A DNA stretch of 51,019 nt from Algoriphagus lutimaris. Lineage in GTDB: Bacteria > Bacteroidota > Bacteroidia > Cytophagales > Cyclobacteriaceae. Where the stretch lies: positions 1,134,035 through 1,185,053 of the forward strand of contig NZ_JAFIDJ010000002.1 of NCBI RefSeq assembly GCF_017051705.1, read 5' to 3'. Position 1 is the stretch's first letter. Every line of letters starts with the position of its first letter. Below the pieces are notes generated by a model that saw nothing but the letters and a program-made list of their open reading frames with translations, made no database searches and was not told where the DNA came from. The position numbers were made by a program, and so were the translations under genes. Below, piece by piece: positions 1 to 45,309 of the stretch.

Positions 1-3000
1 GGTGTTCACAGCCACTTATACCATCACTCAGTCCGACATGGACGCGGGTCAGGTGGACAACACTGCTACAGCGACAGGCAATGATCCTGACGATGTGGAA
101 GTGAGCGATACAGACAGTGAGACGATCACCGCAATCACTGATGCAAGAATAGCTATCATCAAAACGGCATCTGTTGATTCTGAGGATGATTGCTACGATA
201 CAGGTGATTTGATTACCTATACATTCACTGTCATTAATACAGGAAATGTAACCTTGAATAATGTTGAAGTGAATGAATTCCACTTCACTGGTACAGGTAC
301 TTTGTCAGCTATTACTTTCATAAACAGTAGCTTGAATAGTGCAGAGGGCACCCTATTACCAAATGAATCTGCGATTTATACTGCGACTTATGAGATTACA
401 TTGGATGATACCAATATCCGATACATCAATAATCAAGCAGAAGCAACTGCAGTATTTGAGGAAACTACAGTAGATGATCTATCTGGTGATTCTATTGATA
501 CTGATAACGAGACACAGGTTGATCTTTGTCATAACCCAGCCCTTTCCATTGAAAAATCAATAATTGCGGGTGATCCTTATAGTGTGGTTGGTGATGTTGT
601 AGAGTATCAATTCATCGTAACAAATACTGGAAATGTGACCTTAGATGGACCATTCACAGTAGTAGATGATAAAGTACCTGGTATCCCAGCAGCAGCAGAG
701 AATACGTTGGCGCCTAATGAGTCTTTGACTTTGACTGCTGCTTATACCATTTCTCAAGCTGATCTAACAAATGGTTCGGTTACCAATATTGCTTCGGCCA
801 TTGGATACCTCAATGAGACAGAAGTGATGTCAGACCCTGATCAGGCTACAGCTGAGGCGAGGTTTAATGATATCATTGCGATAGATGATAACGCTGGTAC
901 ATACACCATTTCTGGAGGAGTAGCATCTATCAATGCATTTGACAATGACTCTTATATAGGAGGTGCTGCAAATACAGGAAATGTTGTTCTTACTACGGTA
1001 ATTCCAGATCCTTCAGGAATATTGACAGTAGATGAAAATGGGGTCATCACTATTGCAGCAAATGCGGCTGCAGGTGATTATGAATTGACTTATAGAATTA
1101 CAGAAATCGGTAATGCAGACAATTACGATGAAGCAGTAATTAGTGCTACTGTTGAACCTGTATTATTGATAGATGAAATAGAGTCTTATTGTGAATTGGA
1201 TGCTCCATATTTAAGATGGTTGCTTGAGCCTGCCAACTTTAACTTGCAGGACCTTGCTCCAGGAAATCCAAATCCATTGACTATGATTTGGTATGATAGC
1301 AATGATCAAGAGATCATTAGATATGAGAATATTCCAATGGAAGGATACATGTTGTTCCCAGGAGCAGATACCTTGCCAGGTGGATATGGAAGCCAGTGGC
1401 CAGGATGGAGATTTGTGAACGGTATGTGGGAATCTGGAGACTTTAACTATGCTGCCGTAAGAGAACCAGGTGCGTATGTGAAATTCCAGTTGAATCCTGA
1501 AGTTAGCTCAGAAATAGCCTATCCAGGTACTACTTCAGATTGTAATCCAAATCCAAATCCTCCAATTGCAGTTGACGATGATATGACAGGAACTCCTGTG
1601 TCAAGCCAACTTGGATATTCAAACATTATCAATGTATTGGATAATGATATGTTGGGTGACTTGACAGGTCTAGATACTGATTTAGTAGATGTATTTGAGG
1701 TATCTCAGTCGAATCCTGGAGCTTTAATCCTGGATACTACGACAGGTCTAGTTAGTGTAAGTGCAGGTCTTGCTCCAGGTATTTATACACTAGAGTATAG
1801 AATATGTACTAATCCTAACCCAACTAATTGTGATACTGCAATTGTAACTGTCTTGGTTGTTCAGCCATCTGTTCAAATTGAGAAAACAGTTTTATCCAAT
1901 GACGATCAGGTCGGAGGGTTCATCACCTATAACATCAAAGTCATCAATGATGGAGATGTTGAGTTGAAAGATATTGAAGTGGTGGATGAGTTGACAGGAG
2001 ATGCTTGGACAGTTCCAACATTGGAACCAGGTACCTCTGCAAATTATGTAACTCAACTGGCGATTACTCAAGATATCATTGAGCAAGAATGTGTGACCAA
2101 TACTGCTACTGCTACTGTATACTTATCATCAGAGGTAGAAAGTATTGTGTTGGCTGAGGACTCTGATTCAGTGGCTGAATGTATGACCTTAACTCCAAGC
2201 ATCAATATCGAGAAGGTAGCTAATCCTTCTCAGGTAGAAGCTGCAGGTCAAGAGATAATCTATTCATTGACAGTAACCAATACCGGTAATGTGATTCTAT
2301 ATGATGTGATTATTTCGGATCCATTGACTAGTTTGAATTTGAATGTTGGCACCATTGCCCCAGGATTGTCTTCTACAATTAACACGCCTTATACTGTAAC
2401 CCAGGCAGATATGGATGCTGGTTCTATCTTGAACGTGGCGACAACTACTGGAACTACAATAAAAGATGAGGTGGTAGAAGATCAGGATGAGATAACAGTT
2501 GAGGTGGTTAGAATACCTAATATATCCTTGAACAAAACAGTGGATCTAGAATCTGTAGATAGGGAGGGAATTGTTCTAAACTATACTCTGGAAGTAACCA
2601 ACTCCGGTAATGTATCTTTATCAAGTGGTAATTTGGTCGATCCTAAGACTGGACTTTCCTTGTCAAATATTTCCTTGGCACCAGGAGAAATGAAGTCCTT
2701 CTCTACTTCCTATACTGTAACATTGGAAGACTTATTGAGCGGTGATCCAATCTTGAATGTTGCAACTGTTAATGCAGTGGATACTTTCTCTGGTACCACA
2801 GTTCAGGCACAAAATCAGGCGATAGTTAGTTTGAATCTGGAACCAGGAATCGAGATAGTGAAAACAGCTGATATTGAAGAGGCAACCTTCCCTGGTGAGG
2901 AAATAACTTATACATTAACTGTAACCAATACCGGTACAGCACCATTAGTAGATGTGCTAGTTTCTGATCCATTGACTGGATTTGAGGAGACCATCGGATT

Positions 3001-4143: not shown

Positions 4144-5115
4144 ATGAGAACGACTTTTAGAATCATAGTAATGAGTGTTTTGTTATTCTCGGTATCCGGG
4201 ATAACAAAGGGCCAGCAGCTTCCCCAGTTCAGCCAGTATATTTTCAATGGGCTGCACATTAACCCGGGCTATGCGGGATACAAAGGGGAGCCTTATATCC
4301 AGAGCACGTACCGTAGCCAGTGGGTCAATTTTCCGGGAGCTCCGGAGACGTTCACGGTGACAGCGGATCTGTCGGCGAACGAGGGTAAGATGGGCTTTGG
4401 GGTTAGTTTTTTGAGCGACAACCTGGGACCTGCTCGTACCACTGGAGGTCTGTTGACGTATGCTTACCGTATCCAGACGGGCTCGAAGAGCTGGTTGGGT
4501 CTTGGTGTGAGCGCGGGCTTCAGCCAGTACTCGATAGACGGGGACATGCTTGATCCGAATGATTTTCCGGACAGTGAGATCCCTGGAGGCCGTGTGAACC
4601 TGATTAGTCCGAACTTGAACACGGGGCTGTTTTTCCATACGAACCGTTTTTATGCAGGTTTCAGTATGTACAACATGGTGGGCAAGAAGTCTCTGGAGCG
4701 GGAGGATGTTGCCTTGGCGTACCATGACTTCCACTACTACCTGACCGCAGGAGTGATGATTCCGTTTTCGGAGCAGGTACAGTTCAAGCCAAGCTTCCTG
4801 ATCAAGGAGGTGAAGGGAGCCCCAACGAATTATGACCTGAATGCGATGTTCCTCTTCTACGACCGAGTGTGGTTAGGCGGGAGCTATCGTAGCAACCTGA
4901 AGATCTGGAACGACAACCTGGCCGAGAACCTGAGCAACCGGAACGCGGTGGCTGCGATCATCGAGATCTTTGCCACGGACCGATTGCGTCTGGGCTATGC
5001 GTACGACCATAACCTGAACGTGCTGAGCGACTACAACAACAACTCTCATGAGCTGTCAGTAGGCTTCTATATGACCCCAAGAAAAGCAGTGATGAAAAAC
5101 CAAAGATGGTTCTGA
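4144..5115 (+). CDS. PorP/SprF-family type IX secretion membrane protein
   Basis: 323 residues, with an N-terminal signal peptide (about 1-24, cut near TKGQQ). The start of the mature part, QLPQFSQYIFNGLHINPGYAG, followed by YRSQWVNFPGAPET, is the hallmark of the PorP/SprF family. The rest alternates short beta strands typical of a 14-strand outer-membrane barrel and ends with a Phe (RWF). In gliding Bacteroidota, SprF is needed to export or attach the adhesin SprB, and such genes commonly sit directly downstream of a CHU_C-domain adhesin, as here. The next gene starts 2 bp after the stop, so the three genes are probably one transcript. Base composition from about 4190 on is visibly more GC-rich than that of the adhesin gene. 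Confidence 0.92.
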   Translation: MRTTFRIIVMSVLLFSVSGITKGQQLPQFSQYIFNGLHINPGYAGYKGEPYIQSTYRSQWVNFPGAPETFTVTADLSANEGKMGFGVSFLSDNLGPARTTGGLLTYAYRIQTGSKSWLGLGVSAGFSQYSIDGDMLDPNDFPDSEIPGGRVNLISPNLNTGLFFHTNRFYAGFSMYNMVGKKSLEREDVALAYHDFHYYLTAGVMIPFSEQVQFKPSFLIKEVKGAPTNYDLNAMFLFYDRVWLGGSYRSNLKIWNDNLAENLSNRNAVAAIIEIFATDRLRLGYAYDHNLNVLSDYNNNSHELSVGFYMTPRKAVMKNQRWF

Positions 5116-38839: not shown

Positions 38840-39874
38840 ATGAATATAAATCCTGAAGACGACTTCGAAGACGAGGAGGTTGAATTGTTTGAGCATTATC
38901 GGATTATTATTGACAAGGGGCAGACCCTCACTAGGATAGATAAATTCCTAAGCGATAAGATAGCTAATGCTACAAGAAATAAAGTTCAACAAGCCATCGA
39001 TGCAGGCTCCATATTAGTCAATGGAAGTCCAACTAAGGCCAATTATAAAGTAAAGCCTTTGGATGATATTCGTGTCATGTTGGAGAAGCCTCCTAAGGAA
39101 ACAGAAGTATATTCTGAAAACATTCCTTTGGACATAATATATGAGGACCCTTATTTATTGTTGGTAAATAAGCCTCCTGGGATGGTGGTGCATCCTGCGC
39201 ATGGGAATTGGTCTGGAACCTTGGTGAATGGGCTTGTTTACTATTTTGAGAATCTTCCCGAGATGAAAGGTAATACGGGTAGACCTGGGTTGGTTCATAG
39301 GATTGACAAAGATACTTCTGGCCTTTTGGTAATAGCCAAAACAGAAGAGGCAATGACTAACCTTGCCAGCCAGTTTTTTCATCACACGATTGATAGAACA
39401 TACATTGCCTTGGTTTGGGGCGAGCCGAATGAAGATGAAGGTACGATTACGGGGAATGTAGGAAGAAGTGCAAAAAATAGGAAGGTGATGGATGTGTTCC
39501 CTGAGGGAGAGCAAGGAAAACATGCAGTAACGCATTGGAAGGTTTTGAAGCGCTTACGATACGTCACATTAATCCAATGTAATTTAGAGACGGGACGGAC
39601 ACATCAGATTAGAGCACATATGAAATATCTAGGACATCCATTGTTCAATGATGCTATGTATGGAGGAGATAAAATCCGAAAGGGTACTCAATTTTCTAAA
39701 TACAAGACCTTTGTCCAAAACTGTTTTGACTTAATGCCAAGACAAGCGCTTCATGCTCAATCTCTGGGTTTTATACATCCCATTACAAAGGAAAAGCTCC
39801 ATTTTGAGGTTCCCCTTCCTCCAGATTTTCAATCTGTTTTAGAGAAGTGGGAGTCATATGTAAATTTTGAGTGA
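38840..39874 (+). CDS. rluD: RluA/RluD-family 23S rRNA pseudouridine synthase
   Basis: 344 residues. An S4 RNA-binding domain (about 30-90) has TRIDKFLSDKIANATRNKVQQAI and VNGSPTKANYKVKPLDDI. The catalytic domain has VNKPPGMVVHPAHGN, then HRIDKDTSGLLVIAKT with the catalytic Asp (~155), and ETGRTHQIRAHMKYLGHPL. RluD converts three uridines in helix 69 of 23S rRNA. The S4 plus HRIDKDTSG arrangement suits RluD better than RluA or RluC, though the exact target is inferred. It is followed by the AT-rich spacer with the tRNA-like genes. Confidence 0.9.
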   Translation: MNINPEDDFEDEEVELFEHYRIIIDKGQTLTRIDKFLSDKIANATRNKVQQAIDAGSILVNGSPTKANYKVKPLDDIRVMLEKPPKETEVYSENIPLDIIYEDPYLLLVNKPPGMVVHPAHGNWSGTLVNGLVYYFENLPEMKGNTGRPGLVHRIDKDTSGLLVIAKTEEAMTNLASQFFHHTIDRTYIALVWGEPNEDEGTITGNVGRSAKNRKVMDVFPEGEQGKHAVTHWKVLKRLRYVTLIQCNLETGRTHQIRAHMKYLGHPLFNDAMYGGDKIRKGTQFSKYKTFVQNCFDLMPRQALHAQSLGFIHPITKEKLHFEVPLPPDFQSVLEKWESYVNFE

Positions 39875-40084
39875 TAGAAACTGATTTAAAATTCAAAAAA
39901 TGCTTTAAAATATTGCTAAAACGACAAAAAAATCAGCGTTTTTAACTAAAAATGATAATTCCACTGATAAAGATTGAAAAATCGTTAAAATTATACCTTG
40001 ATTCGCCTAATTAATTTACGAAATTATATTTTTTAATTCACATTATTAAAAATACTGTAAAAATTTGCTTTATTTTTTATATAA

Positions 40085-40117
40085 TTTGCAAAAATAAGTT
40101 GAATGTGCCTATATTTG
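40085..40117 (+). promoter_or_regulatory. Bacteroidota-type promoter of tRNA-like gene 1
   Basis: TTTG (40085-40088), 21 bp spacer, TATATTTG (40110-40117), which fits the -33 TTTG and -7 TAnnTTTG elements of the Bacteroidota housekeeping sigma factor. Transcription would begin near 40124, about 33 nt before the tRNA body. Confidence 0.6.
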
Positions 40118-40156
40118 ATTCATCAACAGAGATAAAAGATCTCTAGCGACACATAC

Positions 40157-40281
40157 TGTAGGATGTTGAAATTGGCAGACAAGCCCTCCTGTCTCGGGGG
40201 TGGAGGTCATGGGATAAAGCATTTAGCGAGCTCGTAAATTTGCCTAACTACTCCGTGGAGGTTCGAATCCTTCTCCTACAG
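40157..40281 (+). tRNA. tRNA-like gene 1, class II body with GUC anticodon and 56-nt variable region
   Basis: The cloverleaf is complete. The acceptor TGTAGGA/TCCTACA pairs in 7 of 7. The D stem is TTG/CAA with an 11-nt Leu-type loop (AAATTGGCAGA). The anticodon stem is CCCTC/GGGGG with one G-U. The anticodon loop CTGTCTC gives GTC at 40191-40193, the Asp anticodon, with U at position 37. The T arm is GGAGG-TTCGAAT-CCTTC. The discriminator is G (40281), followed by CA, with no encoded CCA. The variable region 40201-40256 is 56 nt, against about 10-24 in class II tRNAs. It has a closing stem GGAG/CTCC (40202-40205 with 40251-40254) and an inner hairpin. In the inner hairpin GC pairs with GC, and ATTTA/TAAAT closes a 9-nt loop with a UU bulge. 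Leu-type D arm, Asp-type anticodon and G73 make its charging uncertain. Promoter and terminator flank it. Confidence 0.82.
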
Positions 40282-40312
40282 CAGGTTATTTTGGGTTTAT
40301 TGTTAATTGACT

Positions 40313-40345
40313 AAAACCATGAAATTTTGTTTCATGGTTTTTTTT
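40313..40345 (+). terminator. Intrinsic terminator after tRNA-like gene 1
   Basis: AAAACCATGAAA-TTTTG-TTTCATGGTTTT hairpin merging into a T run, about 30 bp after the tRNA body. Confidence 0.88.
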
Positions 40346-40732
40346 ATGTCTATACTTTTTTTGGCATAGATTATCTTTTGTAATTAGATGTTTATACAAT
40401 AGAATGAATTGGGGATTGAACCACTCGGAGAACATTGTCAAATTCATAAAATTTCATTCGAAAAAAACTTAAAAATTTTTGATATGGTAATAAAAATGAC
40501 ATAAAAATTAAATTAATGTAAAAAATAAAATAAAATATTATCAAAATTTTAATAAACCAATGGTATTTCTAATTTTGGGCAGTCAATTAAAAGAATTGAA
40601 CAACAAAAACCCAAAAGTCTCATTAAGCATGATTGGATATTTTTTCACTTTTGCTTCATACCAGCTTGGGTCCTAATACATACAGCCGATATACCTATCT
40701 GTTCTCAAACCTATTAATACCTATTAATTTAT
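40346..40732. other. AT-rich spacer between the two tRNA-like genes
   Basis: 387 bp, very AT-rich, no ORF of substance and no coding signal in any frame. I found no clear TAnnTTTG promoter for tRNA-like gene 2. CACTTTTG at 40646-40653 is the nearest, with a wrong first base. Nothing else supported. Confidence 0.6.
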
Positions 40733-40855
40733 TGTAGGATGTTGAAATTGGCAGACAAGCCCTCCTGTCTCGGGGGTGGGGAATCCAGAATAAAGCGTAA
40801 TTCAACCGGACTATTGCCTAACTGCCTCGTGGAGGTTCGAATCCTTCTCCTACAG
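40733..40855 (+). tRNA. tRNA-like gene 2, same body as gene 1 with a different 54-nt variable region
   Basis: Acceptor, D arm, anticodon arm and T arm are identical base for base to gene 1; the first 47 and last 29 bases of the aligned unit (including a trailing GCA) match fully. The anticodon GTC is at 40767-40769. The variable region 40777-40830 is 54 nt. Its closing stem GGGG/CCTC (40778-40781 with 40825-40828) replaces an A-U pair of gene 1 by G-C and a G-C by G-U, so pairing is kept. The blocks ATAAAGC (40791-40796 region) and TTGCCTAACT (40814-40823) are shared with gene 1, but the part between them is unrelated. GC/GC plus GTA/TAT can form a small hairpin there. Flanks are unrelated to gene 1. 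It has its own terminator. Confidence 0.82.
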
Positions 40856-40858
40856 CAA

Positions 40859-40886
40859 TAAAAGCAACACATTGTGTTGCTTTTTT
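40859..40886 (+). terminator. Intrinsic terminator after tRNA-like gene 2
   Basis: AAAGCAACAC-ATT-GTGTTGCTTT hairpin with a T run, starting 3 bp after the tRNA body. Confidence 0.88.
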
Positions 40887-40956
40887 CGTTTCAGCGAAAA
40901 AGAATACATGGTAAAATATCATTCATAATGGCTATTTTAGGTCAAAATTACCTTTA

Positions 40957-43900
40957 ATGTCAGAAAAAGTACATCATACTAAATCAGCTCATCCATTTAG
41001 GAAAAAATTACTGAAATGGGTAATGATTGCTTTTTTAGGACTACTATTTTTAGAATTTATTTTCTATTTCGGTTCTAATTTGTTGCTGTCTAATTGGGCA
41101 AGAAACAAAATTAACGAATCAACTGATGATGTTTATCAGATTGAATTCAACCGAATTAATTTTTCTCTTATTCGAAGGGGCGTTTTTTTGGATGGAATAA
41201 TTATGAAGCCTGTTGAGGGTGTAGTTGCCAAACCAGGGCAGACATTATTTGCTTTTACACTGGATGAATTGGCATTTAAAGGGCTCTGGTATAGTTTTTC
41301 AGAAAATATATTTTACATAGGCAAATTGGAGTTTGACAATCCTAATATTAGTATGGATTTACCAGAGGATAGGTCTGGAAATTTGCAACAAGTGGATTCT
41401 GCAAAAATTGATAAAGAATCTCCAGTCAATGAACTGGAGGAGGAAGTGAAAAAGAGTATTGAAAATATGAAATTGAATGCGTTGGTAGTCCGAACATTGG
41501 AAATCAACCATGCTGATTTGTTTTTTCTAAATTTTTTAAGTCAAAGTTCCTTAGAAGCAAACAATACCAAATTACTTGTCAGGGACATTAATTTGACTAC
41601 ACAAGAGGAGTGGGAAACTCCTTTTAATGCAAGGGGGTTTGAATTTGATTTAGAAAATGTACTATTTCCTTTACCTGATGATGTTCATAAGATTACTGCA
41701 GATAAGGTCTTTATCAGTTCTTTGACCAATCAGGTTGACCTTCGGAATTTTGAATTGTCTGGGGATAAAAATAAGGAAAGCAAGGCCTACTACTCTGCAA
41801 AACTGAATGCGTTGCGGATAGGAAATGTAGATTTAAATCAAGCGTTCATGACCTCAAGACTTTTAATAGACGAAATTGTCATGGAGGATCCTCTTTTTAA
41901 AGTAGAGAGGGTATTTAAAGCAGATAAAGACAGTACTTCTACGGGTGATTTGAATGAGCTGATTGATGGGGTATTAGAATCAATTTATGTAAAGGAGCTT
42001 TCTATCAATGATGGCAAGTTCGTTACCTCCAATGCGATTGACACCTTAAAAAATAGAATTGACATTGAAGGTTTGGACTTTAAAATGATTGAATTCTATT
42101 TAGGAAATGATGAATCAAAAAAGCAAAACCAATTTTTTTATGGAGAAGATGCATCCATGGAAATCAGAGATGCAAGCTTGTATTTGTCAGATGAAGTTCA
42201 TTTGATCAGGGGTGAAAAAATTAGTGTTTCTTCATTCAAGGATGAAATAGAGATTGATAATGTCAGTTTTCAGCCAAGGGAAGGGGCTCTTCAGGAAAAA
42301 GACCCAGACCAAATCATACGAATTTTTCTGCCTAAAGTAGCCTTGACCAAAGCAAACCTGAAATTATTATATAATGAAAGGAAGTTTGAAATGGATGAAT
42401 TGATGCTCAATTCTCCTCAAGTGGAATTCGTAGAACTTCGGAAAAAGAAAAACCAACCCTCCCAAAACGTTACTATAAAGGATTTATTGGAAGGGTACCT
42501 TACTGATGTGAAAATAGGAAAGCTTGATTTAAATGATGGGGAGGTTCAATTTAAAAATGAAGCTGGAGAAAGAACTAATGATATTGGGTTTGAAAGGTTT
42601 AGTCTAGAATTAGATGAGGTGTTTTTTCAACCTAATTCTACCAAATCAATCAGTGAATTCCTATTTGCAAAAGATGTGGTCCTTAGTTTGGAGAAATATC
42701 GTTTAAAACTTCGGGATAATCTTCATGAGTTTAAAGCTGATCATGTGACCATTGATTCAAAAGACTCTCTTTTGTCTATCAATGGCTTAAGTATTAGTCC
42801 TGAAAACCCGAATCAAGTCCAGCAAGTATTGGACGACTATGGCAAAAGCGTGATTCTTGATATTCGAATTCCTGAGTTTAGGGCTGAAGGTTTTAATATG
42901 AGAGCTGCATTCGAGGAGGAAAAGTTAATAATTCAACAAATTTTGATTCCTGAACCTGAACTGTTCATGTCCAGGTTTAGAAAAAAGCGGAGCTCAAATT
43001 CATCAGCCTCTTTAGAGTCCAGCGTTGAAATCAAGAACTTACTCACTTCATATTTTAATGTAATAGAAATTGATTCTCTGAGCTTTTCAGAAGGAATAAT
43101 AAAATATGAGAATTTCTCTGGTCCTAAGGATATTGCTTTTCAGGAGGACAATTTATCCTTAAAACTGAAAGGATTTTATGTGGATAATACTGGATATGAA
43201 AGAGAAGGCGATAGAACTTTTTTCTCTGAAGAAATCGATCTTAGGTTAAAAAATTATGCTTTTGATCTTGCCGGAGGAAATTATCGAGCCACCACCAATA
43301 ATTTAAGTTTCAACTCAATTGACCAATCAATCATTATTGATAGTTTAAAGCTGGTCCCCGGTCCGGACTTGGAAAATAAGCTTGCTCTTTCTTTAGACTT
43401 GCCTCAAGTGACATTCAATGGGGTGGATATTGAATCATTCCTTTTTGAAAATGTTCTTGATCTGAATAAATTAAAGGTGATGGGAGGGAGAATCAATATT
43501 GAAATTGATAAAGATTATGAACAGCAAGAGAAAGAGGAAAATGAGCAGAAAAAATCTCTACCAAAATCGATTGAATTGATTAAAATCGATTCAATTGAAG
43601 CAGTAAATTCCACATTGGGAATCAATTTTCGTTCTGGAACCAATGAAGCTCAGTCCATTCAAACAAATTTTGATCTAGGTATTCTTGGATTCAATTTTGA
43701 TTCTACAGCGAATACCAAAGAAGATTTATCTGGCCTTTTTTCCGAAATAAACTTATCACTTCAGGATTTTTCTTTTGCGCTACCAGATAGTATTCATACG
43801 ATCCAGTTTTCTAGTGTCAACGTGGATAATTCAGTAGATGCAACTATTTTTTCCAATTTTCAAGTAATTCCAAAGAGTACAACGATTGGTCCTGGATCCC

Positions 43901-45309
43901 CCATTGTTTCTGCAAGAATTGAACGTCTATCTCTTCAAAATAATACCTTAAAAGAAATCCAGGAGACCGGGATTTTTGACATGACTAAACTATCATTGGT
44001 AAATCCAGTAATTGACATTTACTTGGATTCTGCAGAAAAAGTAGTAAAGCCTAAACCTGCTAAACCAAAAAATAAAGAGGGGTTAATTCAAACAGTTCTT
44101 TTGCAGGATATTCTTGTTCAAAATGGCAAATTTACGCTATACAACAAGGAAATAGGTCCCATTGAACACTTGGCTTTTGATGGAGTAAATGTAGAATTAG
44201 CGGAACTGAACTTTAATTTGATAGGAAAGGATCAAAAGATAAATCCACAGTTTCTACTAGAAAAAGACCATAGTTTATCGTTGACAAACTACGTGTATTA
44301 TAGTTCCGATAGTCTCAATAGAATTGACATCGGAAAGCTTAGTTTGCTGGATGATGATCTAATAGTGGAGGATATCAAAATGGGGCCGACTATTGGGAGG
44401 TATAATTATTTAAACCAACAAGGTTTCCAATCTGATGCGATCGATGCAGAAGTAAAGAAGGTCACCTTATTGAATATTGATTTTAACGAGTATTTTCTGA
44501 ATAGCAAATTAAAAGCCCAAGGTTTAATTTTGGATAGCTTGAGCTTAGATGTGTTTAGAGATAAGCGTTTGCCCTTAAAGGAAGGTGTCTACAAACCTAT
44601 GCCGCAAGCTTTGATGAGAAATTCACCCATTGATTTGGAGGTTGATTCAGTGAAAGTGAACGGTGGTCTAATTAGGTATGAAGAGTTTGGCCCCAAGTCC
44701 ATGCTACCTGGGATGATTTCTTTTAATCAAGTTGATGCAAAATTGGCCCCTTTTATTTTAAGGAGGAGTGAGCAGGATTATCCGGTTAAGAATACGAAAT
44801 TACATGTTACCAGCAAATTGATGGGGCAAGGGGATGTTCAGTTAGATGCAACATTATTTTATGAAGATCCCTATCCAATGGAAGTAGATATCTCATTGGG
44901 AGAATTAGATTTGACGACTTTAAATAATATGCTTACAAGAGGAGTATTTGTCAGGGTATTATATGGTAGAGTCACAGATGGGAAATGGAATTTTAAGGTA
45001 AATGACGATGTGGCAAGAGGGAAGATGAATTTTCATTATGAGGATTTGAAGGTTGAATTTTTGGATAGTTTGACCTTGGAGCGTGGCACAGGGAAGCTCA
45101 ACTTAATGACCTTTATTGCAAACACGATAACCAAGAATTCTAATCCTCGAAAATTTTTCAATAAACGAGTGACGGCCACAATTTATAATGAGCGGGATAA
45201 ATCCAAATTCATTTTTGGAGGATGGTGGAGAGCCACATTTAGTGGACTAAAAGGAAGTCTAGGTTTGGGGCAGGCAAAGGAGCCAAAGCGAAGGGAAGAA
45301 GAAGAGTAA
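40957..45309 (+). CDS. Giant AsmA-like repeat protein with one N-terminal TM
   Basis: 1450 residues. A short basic N-terminus and one TM (about 20-43) are followed by a long all-beta periplasmic part. AsmA-type features are the NKINESTDDVYQIEFNRINF opening (compare DUF748/AsmA proteins) and the C-terminal GQGDVQLDATLFYEDPYPMEVDISLGELDLTTLNNMLTRGVFVRVLYG stretch, given here in outline only. A unit of the form 'V..L.L.DG...F.NE......I.F..........' recurs at least five times, for example SINDGKFVTSNA, DLNDGEVQFKNEAG, SFSEGIIKYENFSG, LVQNGKFTLYNKEIG and KVNGGLIRYEEFG. AsmA-family proteins are thought to bridge the periplasm and help carry lipids to the outer membrane; applying that here is an inference. 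Stands alone, with a terminator after it. Confidence 0.75.
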   Translation: MSEKVHHTKSAHPFRKKLLKWVMIAFLGLLFLEFIFYFGSNLLLSNWARNKINESTDDVYQIEFNRINFSLIRRGVFLDGIIMKPVEGVVAKPGQTLFAFTLDELAFKGLWYSFSENIFYIGKLEFDNPNISMDLPEDRSGNLQQVDSAKIDKESPVNELEEEVKKSIENMKLNALVVRTLEINHADLFFLNFLSQSSLEANNTKLLVRDINLTTQEEWETPFNARGFEFDLENVLFPLPDDVHKITADKVFISSLTNQVDLRNFELSGDKNKESKAYYSAKLNALRIGNVDLNQAFMTSRLLIDEIVMEDPLFKVERVFKADKDSTSTGDLNELIDGVLESIYVKELSINDGKFVTSNAIDTLKNRIDIEGLDFKMIEFYLGNDESKKQNQFFYGEDASMEIRDASLYLSDEVHLIRGEKISVSSFKDEIEIDNVSFQPREGALQEKDPDQIIRIFLPKVALTKANLKLLYNERKFEMDELMLNSPQVEFVELRKKKNQPSQNVTIKDLLEGYLTDVKIGKLDLNDGEVQFKNEAGERTNDIGFERFSLELDEVFFQPNSTKSISEFLFAKDVVLSLEKYRLKLRDNLHEFKADHVTIDSKDSLLSINGLSISPENPNQVQQVLDDYGKSVILDIRIPEFRAEGFNMRAAFEEEKLIIQQILIPEPELFMSRFRKKRSSNSSASLESSVEIKNLLTSYFNVIEIDSLSFSEGIIKYENFSGPKDIAFQEDNLSLKLKGFYVDNTGYEREGDRTFFSEEIDLRLKNYAFDLAGGNYRATTNNLSFNSIDQSIIIDSLKLVPGPDLENKLALSLDLPQVTFNGVDIESFLFENVLDLNKLKVMGGRINIEIDKDYEQQEKEENEQKKSLPKSIELIKIDSIEAVNSTLGINFRSGTNEAQSIQTNFDLGILGFNFDSTANTKEDLSGLFSEINLSLQDFSFALPDSIHTIQFSSVNVDNSVDATIFSNFQVIPKSTTIGPGSPIVSARIERLSLQNNTLKEIQETGIFDMTKLSLVNPVIDIYLDSAEKVVKPKPAKPKNKEGLIQTVLLQDILVQNGKFTLYNKEIGPIEHLAFDGVNVELAELNFNLIGKDQKINPQFLLEKDHSLSLTNYVYYSSDSLNRIDIGKLSLLDDDLIVEDIKMGPTIGRYNYLNQQGFQSDAIDAEVKKVTLLNIDFNEYFLNSKLKAQGLILDSLSLDVFRDKRLPLKEGVYKPMPQALMRNSPIDLEVDSVKVNGGLIRYEEFGPKSMLPGMISFNQVDAKLAPFILRRSEQDYPVKNTKLHVTSKLMGQGDVQLDATLFYEDPYPMEVDISLGELDLTTLNNMLTRGVFVRVLYGRVTDGKWNFKVNDDVARGKMNFHYEDLKVEFLDSLTLERGTGKLNLMTFIANTITKNSNPRKFFNKRVTATIYNERDKSKFIFGGWWRATFSGLKGSLGLGQAKEPKRREEEE

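Follow-up and report, generated by a model that had tools for sequence, protein, structure and literature searches.

Two unannotated tRNA-like genes on the plus strand of the window (the whole stretch of 51,019 nucleotides from Algoriphagus lutimaris that was analysed) are, as is well supported by their homologues, members of a widespread family of tRNA-derived RNAs that combine a regular 7/5 cloverleaf with a large V-arm domain. Judged from its sequences, the RNA is likely not an ordinary decoder, and we see about an even chance that it acts as a non-decoding carrier or charge reporter in a module linked to an AsnC-like regulator. The features of the locus are as follows.

40085..40117, plus strand: candidate promoter of copy 1 (TTTG, 21 nt, TATATTTG), from sequence
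40157..40281, plus strand: tRNA-like RNA copy 1 (type A insert), U1 to G73, CCA not encoded, from sequence, BLAST and covariation
40189..40195, plus strand: anticodon loop CUGUCUC of copy 1 (G34, U35, C36, pyrimidine 37), a 7-nt loop fixed by stem covariation
40201..40256, plus strand: V region of copy 1, 56 nt, from sequence and alignment
40313..40341, plus strand: intrinsic-terminator-like site after copy 1, from a terminator scan
40733..40855, plus strand: tRNA-like RNA copy 2 (type B insert), U1 to G73, from sequence and BLAST
40765..40771, plus strand: anticodon loop CUGUCUC of copy 2, from sequence and the loop tally
40777..40830, plus strand: V region of copy 2, 54 nt, from sequence and alignment
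40860..40884, plus strand: intrinsic-terminator-like site after copy 2, from a terminator scan

The earlier note on this DNA had described two cloverleaves with identical acceptor, D, anticodon and T arms and with V regions of 56 and 54 nt, and all of this was confirmed from the sequence. The compensation that it had seen in the V stem is real as well (GGAG/CTCC versus GGGG/CCTC, with one A-U to G-C change and one G.U). On one side the gene pair is flanked by a pseudouridine synthase gene (38840-39874, PF00849), and on the other by a reading frame of 1450 aa (40957-45309) with no Pfam match at E<=0.001. ARAGORN reported no tRNA in the window, Rfam gave no match there at the gathering score, and a permissive Rfam scan of 40050-40960 produced nothing near that score. 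Within its own genome, BLAST matched exactly these two copies; the genome also has 39 ordinary tRNA matches and a separate tmRNA, and the tRNAs fetched from it include four tRNA-Leu, three tRNA-Ser and two tRNA-Asp(GTC) genes. The single-sequence folding energies of copies 1 and 2 are not unusual (z of -0.02 and 0.55, respectively).

When copy 1 was used as the BLAST query, matches were obtained in 123 of the 148 genomes of the same family, the weak ones among which may include ordinary tRNA-Leu. An exact 38-base core was present in at least 118 stretches (one genome per species), and the titles of those fetched are all Bacteroidota. A covariance model built from 39 sequences scored most family members, which are longer than 105 nt, at 75-147 bits, and the ordinary tRNA-Leu matches inspected at no more than about 64 bits. 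At E<=1e-15, 39 of 395 genomes sampled from the phylum Bacteroidota carried the RNA, a tally made with stricter filters that lose weak matches, and the carriers fall into seven families (f1, f11, f13, f23, f24, f27 and f67). The corresponding tally for the order, counted by hand, is about 212 of 291 genomes; at E<=1e-3, ordinary tRNA-Leu inflates the numbers (278 of 291 for the order and 363 of 395 for the phylum). Below the 1e-15 cut-off, the RNA is also present in genomes G498, as a form of 197 nt, and G159, as one of 78 nt whose V loop is short. This covariance model search of Bacteroidota genomes, of the kind that the earlier note had proposed, recovered family members in several lineages of the phylum, and it excludes that homologues are confined to the present locus. 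Two to seven copies, always on one strand, occur in 43 of the 99 bacterial loci of two fetched sets, and copies 1 and 2 represent two paralogue types that lie side by side in many Algoriphagus loci. In total, 317 distinct bacterial sequences were collected and 315 were parsed, two degenerate L169 copies being unparsed; locus L227, a tRNA-Leu, was dropped before the counts. No BLAST match was obtained in plasmids or INPHARED phages, and no description of the RNA family was found in the open-access PMC literature, judged on titles and the starts of abstracts.

The 7-bp acceptor, D, 5-bp anticodon and 5-bp T stems covary, with 97-100% of cells paired per helix (35 sequences), and 99.0% of cells pair over the acceptor, D, anticodon, V and T helices of 35 diverse sequences. 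As many as 17 of 24 pairs change on both sides in the 35-sequence alignment and 14 in a 39-sequence alignment, which was reached by none of 500 shuffles; in the 39-sequence alignment, 46 of 500 shuffles attained the value of one measure, that of further pair types. Disruption of the stems in relatives, which the earlier note had named as an outcome that would speak against a functional structure, is thereby excluded.

Across the parsed bacterial sequences, the V region spans 39-123 nt (leaving out an L317 copy that holds a run of N and would read 134 nt), and it is 7 nt long in one copy (L226). It is built of the V stem, an optional extra hairpin, a 3-bp helix, an internal loop NANAAA/CUAA and a hairpin, P2. 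Copy 1 combines its V stem with a UGG/CUA 3-bp helix, a GAUAAA/CUAA internal loop and a P2 hairpin with a palindromic GAGCUC loop, and copy 2 has a V stem, a CAG/CUG 3-bp helix, an AAUAAA/CUAA internal loop and a P2 region. The 3-bp helix pairs in 269 of 339 cells in bacteria (113 distinct combinations, leaving out two sequences without CUAA/CCAA and four without NANAAA) versus a shuffled maximum of 229, a comparison in which the position of NANAAA was picked for best pairing, which favours the helix and is corrected only in part by the shuffled-partner control. P2 is variable: drawn in one register, it pairs in 61% of cells (39-sequence alignment), and its size runs from a few base pairs capped by a tetraloop in L200, L224 and L228 to extended forms containing the motif GGGUNGACCAC. 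This motif occurs in 117 distinct V regions of bacteria and phages together, copies holding N being left out of the counts, and its N is U, A or C, never G. The earlier claim of a conserved scaffold with a changing insert stands for the scaffold and needs correction for the insert, which does not change freely: inserts are kept by paralogue type and share the V core of the family; a hypervariable programmable insert was rejected on the same ground.

Some unusual members were also observed. Locus L226 in genome G159 contains, at 4837-4914 on the minus strand, a 78-nt member with a 7-nt V loop and the anticodon loop CUAUCUC, followed by a terminator-like hairpin, so that the giant V arm can be absent while the loop and acceptor identity stay. 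In L169, two tandem copies (1674-1807 and 1854-1987, minus strand) have the 5' part of the anticodon arm replaced by a hairpin, CCCGATAGCTATCGGG, which is also seen inside V arms elsewhere, e.g. in L109. This hairpin is perhaps a mobile palindrome inserting into the RNA genes, and the L169 copies are probable pseudogenes.

Several other structural candidates were tried and rejected. Anti-Shine-Dalgarno mimicry by the CCUCC in the anticodon arm fails since this stretch is not conserved (CCGUC in f67, CUAGC in L226), and inspection by eye gave no covariation for a pairing between the anticodon loop and the V-arm GGGA stretch. A tmRNA consists of a tRNA domain without an anticodon arm plus a tag reading frame; here a full anticodon arm is present, the score is 10.9 bits versus a gathering score of 47, and the genome has its separate tmRNA. 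An assignment to tRNA-Sec or allo-tRNA was discarded as well, the stems being 7/5 in 35 aligned sequences with no extended acceptor branch.

The acceptor end of the 315 parsed distinct bacterial sequences has U1, G2 and C71 in 315/315 and U3, A72 and G73 in 314/315 each. In the anticodon loop, U35, C36 and C38 are each present in 315/315, U33 in 282 and G34 in 288, and position 37 is U in 303, C in 11 and G in one, i.e. a pyrimidine in 314. The whole loop CUGUCUC was found in 235 of them, and this loop conservation is somewhat overstated because most sequences were found with patterns or models favouring the common loop. Positions 33 and 34 differ even between copies of one array (L171, L173, L317). 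A further 68 distinct phage sequences agree, but the viral patterns fixed UCUC, so the phage loop is not independent. Ordinary decoding tRNAs keep U33 and a purine at position 37 in their 7-nt anticodon loop. This rule of decoding elongator tRNAs does not hold in the RNA family, and the variable positions 33 and 34 together with pyrimidine 37 make ordinary decoding unlikely: constraint on codon reading looks weak here, while the acceptor end and positions 35, 36 and 38 are held fixed.

Compared by eye with the tRNA-Leu genes of its own genome, the RNA has a class II body with a leucine-type D arm and V-arm spacing. Leucine identity in bacteria rests on A73, A20a, a large V region and tertiary interactions, and E. 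coli LeuRS has an antideterminant in the G73 of tRNA-Ser (excerpt of PMC9976931). With G73 in place of A73 in 314/315, the body looks re-specified away from leucine identity and tRNA-Leu-like otherwise. Charging with leucine or serine was set aside since A73 is lost and SerRS uses C72 (Table 1 in the same excerpt of PMC9976931), where the RNA has A72. For aspartate, that excerpt lists G73, G34, U35, C36 and C38 as strong identity elements, with G2-C71 minor, and it describes G1-C72 as helping AspRS (PMC9976931). In the family, G73, U35, C36 and C38 are invariant or nearly so and G34 reaches only 288/315; the class I V loop and G1-C72 of tRNA-Asp are absent (U1 in 315, A72 in 314, and a V region of at least 39 nt in all but one sequence). 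The RNA instead has the U1-A72 pair of the GatCAB substrates tRNA-Asn/Gln, and bacterial GatCAB recognises this pair in tRNA-Asn (excerpt of PMC4206432).

These positions could also be read as those of a specialised decoding tRNA, i.e. a class II isoacceptor of tRNA-Asp (GUC), derived from tRNA-Leu, that serves special conditions and is carried by phages like other tRNAs. The loop CUGUCUC differs from the CUGUCAC of the organism's own tRNA-Asp solely at position 37, the aspartate determinants are present, phage copies often lie in tRNA arrays, and ARAGORN assigns tRNA-Asp GTC to seven short forms from phages and tRNA-Asp ATC to the bacterial form of 78 nt. We nevertheless consider this explanation unlikely, given that position 37 is a pyrimidine in all but one of the sequences and that positions 33 and 34 vary even within arrays. 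Moreover, U or C at position 34 (14/315) would read Glu codons, and both the own genome, with its two ordinary tRNA-Asp genes, and several phage arrays (L276, L288, L369 and L376, one each) hold an ordinary tRNA-Asp.

Clustering of the neighbouring proteins revealed one gene that recurs in distant families, and no other neighbour in the protein clusters printed is as widely recurrent there. An HTH and an Lrp/AsnC ligand domain were found in two of these proteins (from L236 and the own locus L246). The best NCBIfam model of the L236 representative is AsnC (NF008384, E 3.1e-52, 176.5 bits, below the equivalog cut-off of 227), and its best match among solved structures is AsnC (PDB 2cg4) at E 3.7e-36, versus E 3.7e-13 for Lrp (2gqq). 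AsnC of E. coli activates asnA and responds to asparagine (excerpt of PMC4482635). According to a profile search, the regulator lies beside the RNA in 57 of the 99 fetched bacterial loci, every time upstream and divergent, with 44-304 bp between its open frame and the RNA, and it is present in 24 of 40 loci fetched without regard to neighbours. Among 395 genomes, 39 have both RNA and regulator, none the RNA only, five the regulator only and 351 neither (Fisher p 8e-49, with genomes counted as independent despite shared ancestry). The two are divergent and within 500 bp of each other in 29 of the 39 RNA-bearing genomes; in the other 10, including that of A. lutimaris, both are present but apart, and the own regulator lies at G000:C1:360864-361328 in locus L246, which holds no RNA. 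Two of the five regulator-only genomes are G498 and G159 with their RNA forms below the cut-off. In the remaining three (G412, G757 and G528), ordinary tRNA-Leu was all that two models recovered, and the result was the same in G163, a genome outside the 395-genome set that has the regulator without the RNA. Since every sampled RNA-bearing genome has an AsnC-like regulator, the RNA may have a job outside decoding. In locus L249 of G159, the usual RNA place upstream of the AsnC-like gene holds another structured-looking stretch with a strong hairpin.

Viral contigs, at least 82 of them, also carry full-length copies, either within tRNA arrays or, it appears, on their own. The exact core occurs on 22 viral contigs, 21 of which have full-length RNA, and a looser pattern yielded at least 61 further full-length copies among 69 new viral loci. 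ARAGORN finds one or more tRNAs in all 21 fetched stretches of the first viral set (up to 25 in L276) and none in 13 of the 27 examined in the second set, these stretches being parts of contigs. Seven proteins from six loci matched PHROGs (e.g. terminase, PhoH, thymidylate synthase and DNA ligase), so these six viral loci look like phages, and the remaining ones rely on IMG/VR. No AsnC-like gene was detected in the 21 viral stretches searched. Viral copies of 92-106 nt with V arms near normal class II size were observed in L344, L339, L386, L350, L366, L393, L337, L390 and L367; apart from L386, ARAGORN named seven of these eight short forms tRNA-Asp(GTC) and missed L367. With these short viral forms, the RNA type may extend beyond Bacteroidota. 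Other viral copies (L285, L279, L272, L276, L290 and L377) have an extra D-loop hairpin plus a giant V arm, and a tmRNA is also encoded in the stretches L279, L376, L341, L369 and L390.

A 6-nt palindrome directly follows the V-arm motif in 38 of 42 distinct phage segments (shuffled mean 10.3, maximum 18), and could allow dimers in phage segments only, as bacterial inserts show no enrichment (7 of 49, shuffled mean 10.5). This pattern bears on another explanation, in which the RNA is a tRNA-mimicking regulatory RNA that stays uncharged and uses its V arm and UCYC loop to bind a protein or an RNA as part of an AsnC-linked stress or amino-acid response. The V-arm core conserved with GGGUNGACCAC in both bacteria and phages, the covarying 3-bp helix, the dimer contacts suggested by the phage palindromes and the link to the AsnC-like regulator would all suit such a role. 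We still hold it to be improbable: strong conservation is seen at identity positions of the acceptor and anticodon, which a mimic that is never charged could do without, minimal forms end in short tetraloops, the V loop of L226 is reduced to 7 nt, and the palindromes are a feature that bacteria do not share.

The number of viral contigs with full-length copies, and the 13 of 27 viral stretches in which ARAGORN finds no other tRNA, might instead point to an RNA of phage-host conflict, a decoy or a replacement for a tRNA attacked by defence nucleases, which hosts would keep and phages would copy. This is very unlikely in our view, as co-occurrence with a chromosomal regulator of amino-acid type suggests a housekeeping role and, among the clusters printed, no other neighbour recurs as widely in distant families.

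The candidate promoter of copy 1, TTTG-N21-TATATTTG, is what we take to be a Bacteroidota-type -33/-7 promoter pattern. It is overlapped by a sigma-70-like match, TTGCAA-18-TATATT, at 40086-40115, and the region contains 11 sigma-70-like matches versus 5.2 expected. The pattern TTTG-N17-22-TANNTTTG was found no more than 140 nt upstream in 50 of 98 related loci, with a resampled mean of 0.84 and a maximum of 4. Two terminator-like sites lie in 39900-41000 (0.6 expected), and the last copy is followed by such a site in 64 of 99 related loci (mean 3.0, maximum 7 by resampling). The proposal of functional, structured tRNA-like genes thus gains support from widespread homologues, covarying stems, and promoter and terminator patterns at related loci. 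That they are functionless pseudogenes or repeats is hardly credible: ARAGORN and Rfam miss them and a repeat hairpin has replaced the 5' anticodon strand in the two L169 copies, but helix covariation, invariant loop positions, promoter and terminator patterns and the regulator link speak strongly against it.

For the preferred reading, that of a non-decoding carrier or charge reporter in an AsnC-linked module, a full route through AspRS and GatCAB can be drawn, which is more doubtful and offered tentatively: a dedicated non-decoding tRNA would be charged with Asp and amidated to Asn, and a back-to-back AsnC-type sensor would set its supply. The transcript would be matured and CCA-tailed like a tRNA and charged by AspRS, and some lineages with U34 or C34 might use GluRS. 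The U1-A72 pair would then let GatCAB amidate the attached amino acid, leaving asparagine on a carrier that would not feed the ribosome at Asp codons. The AsnC-like protein would set the RNA dose by asparagine, as E. coli AsnC does for asnA; the V arm may dock a partner or keep the RNA off the ribosome; and phages would bring a copy to keep the RNA function running during infection. That the RNA is charged with Asp and then amidated is a guess, though a coherent one that can be tested. Against it, the strong aspartate determinant G34 is absent in 27/315 and G1-C72, helpful to AspRS, is replaced by U1-A72. Most sequences keep U33-G34-U35-C36 and so might still read Asp codons, and a supply of asparagine alone would hardly explain why phages carry the RNA.

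If GatCAB serves the RNA, RNA-bearing genomes with AsnRS and GlnRS should keep GatCAB. In the single genome examined, G417 (RNA-bearing, 70% of the main contig read), this held for the two subunits sought, GatA and GatB both exceeding their NCBIfam cut-offs. The tRNA-Asn of G417 starts with U1-A72, and the genome has three PF00152-class and two full-size PF00749-class synthetase genes, among which we infer AsnRS and GlnRS from length. Two of its proteins exceed the cut-off for glutamine-hydrolysing asparagine synthase, the top model of one being another amidotransferase. In 18 of 547 genera, including Bacteroidetes, AsnRS, GlnRS and GatCAB are present and asparagine synthetase is absent (excerpt of PMC4206432). 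Across 40 genomes, three PF00152-class genes are present in 36, four in G176, G631 and G423, and two in G420, with no clear difference between RNA-bearing and RNA-free genomes. The number of PF00749-class matches per genome is two to four where the RNA is present (22 genomes) and one or two where it is absent (18 genomes). One of the two PF00749 genes is short in G176, G674 and G739, leaving a single full-size gene, so GlnRS may be missing there and GatCAB, if present, may be needed for glutamine. A GluQRS-like gene (E<=1e-10) occurs in 8 of the 22 RNA-bearing versus none of the 18 RNA-free genomes; in four of these eight the gene was checked, and GluQRS models scored highest, at values below the cut-off. 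GluQRS acts on the queuosine of tRNA-Asp. The own genome has such a gene (truncated GluRS) in L457 at 345-1235 on the minus strand (G000:C1). A dedicated extra synthetase paralogue was rejected, there being none for PF00152 and, for PF00749, only the GluQRS-like genes in a minority.

Here, then, is a tRNA-derived RNA in seven sampled Bacteroidota families, in most sampled genomes of the order (hand count) and on many viral contigs, which ARAGORN and Rfam miss. If it does not decode, it is one of the few tRNAs kept for another purpose, and the partner regulator, the promoter and terminator patterns, related lineages without the RNA and the phage copies provide genetic handles. It bears on tRNA-dependent amino-acid synthesis and the persistence of GatCAB in organisms with AsnRS and GlnRS, as well as on tRNA identity change and what phages take from the translation kit. 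Should the AspRS-GatCAB reading be true, it would represent a tRNA-dependent biosynthetic and sensing module that is conserved in several Bacteroidota lineages and adopted by phages.

Among known systems, bacterial tRNA-Leu, especially the own tRNA-Leu(GAG), shares by eye the D arm (GAAANTGGNAGAC), the T arm and the two-nucleotide spacer between V stem and T stem, and the covariance models cross-match ordinary tRNA-Leu at up to about 64 bits in the matches inspected. Unlike tRNA-Leu, the RNA has G73 rather than A73, a U1-A72 pair, the loop NNUCYC and a V region of 39-123 nt with its own core. With bacterial tRNA-Asp it has in common G73, G2-C71, U35, C36, C38 and usually G34, but it differs in its class II body, the lack of G1-C72, pyrimidine 37 and the variable positions 33 and 34. 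The U1-A72 pair is that of tRNA-Asn in the GatCAB route of Bdellovibrio, Deinococcus and Thermus (excerpt of PMC4206432). Whereas tRNA-Asn decodes, the RNA has an Asp-type, probably non-decoding loop and an AsnC-like neighbour of its own. A long V arm and unusual anticodon use are shared with tRNA-Sec, selC* tRNA-Cys and allo-tRNAs, but tRNA-Sec has a 13-bp acceptor branch, and selC* tRNA-Cys and allo-tRNAs share the longer acceptor stem (excerpt of PMC7609411). The RNA, unlike tRNA-Sec and the allo-tRNAs, is 7/5 and has far longer V arms. The acceptor/T forms of tRNA-Sec, selC* tRNA-Cys and allo-tRNAs are 8/4 and 9/3. The asnC and asnA genes of E. coli are arranged divergently. As in that system, an AsnC-type regulator adjoins the unit that it presumably controls; unlike there, the neighbour is an RNA gene and not an asparagine synthetase.
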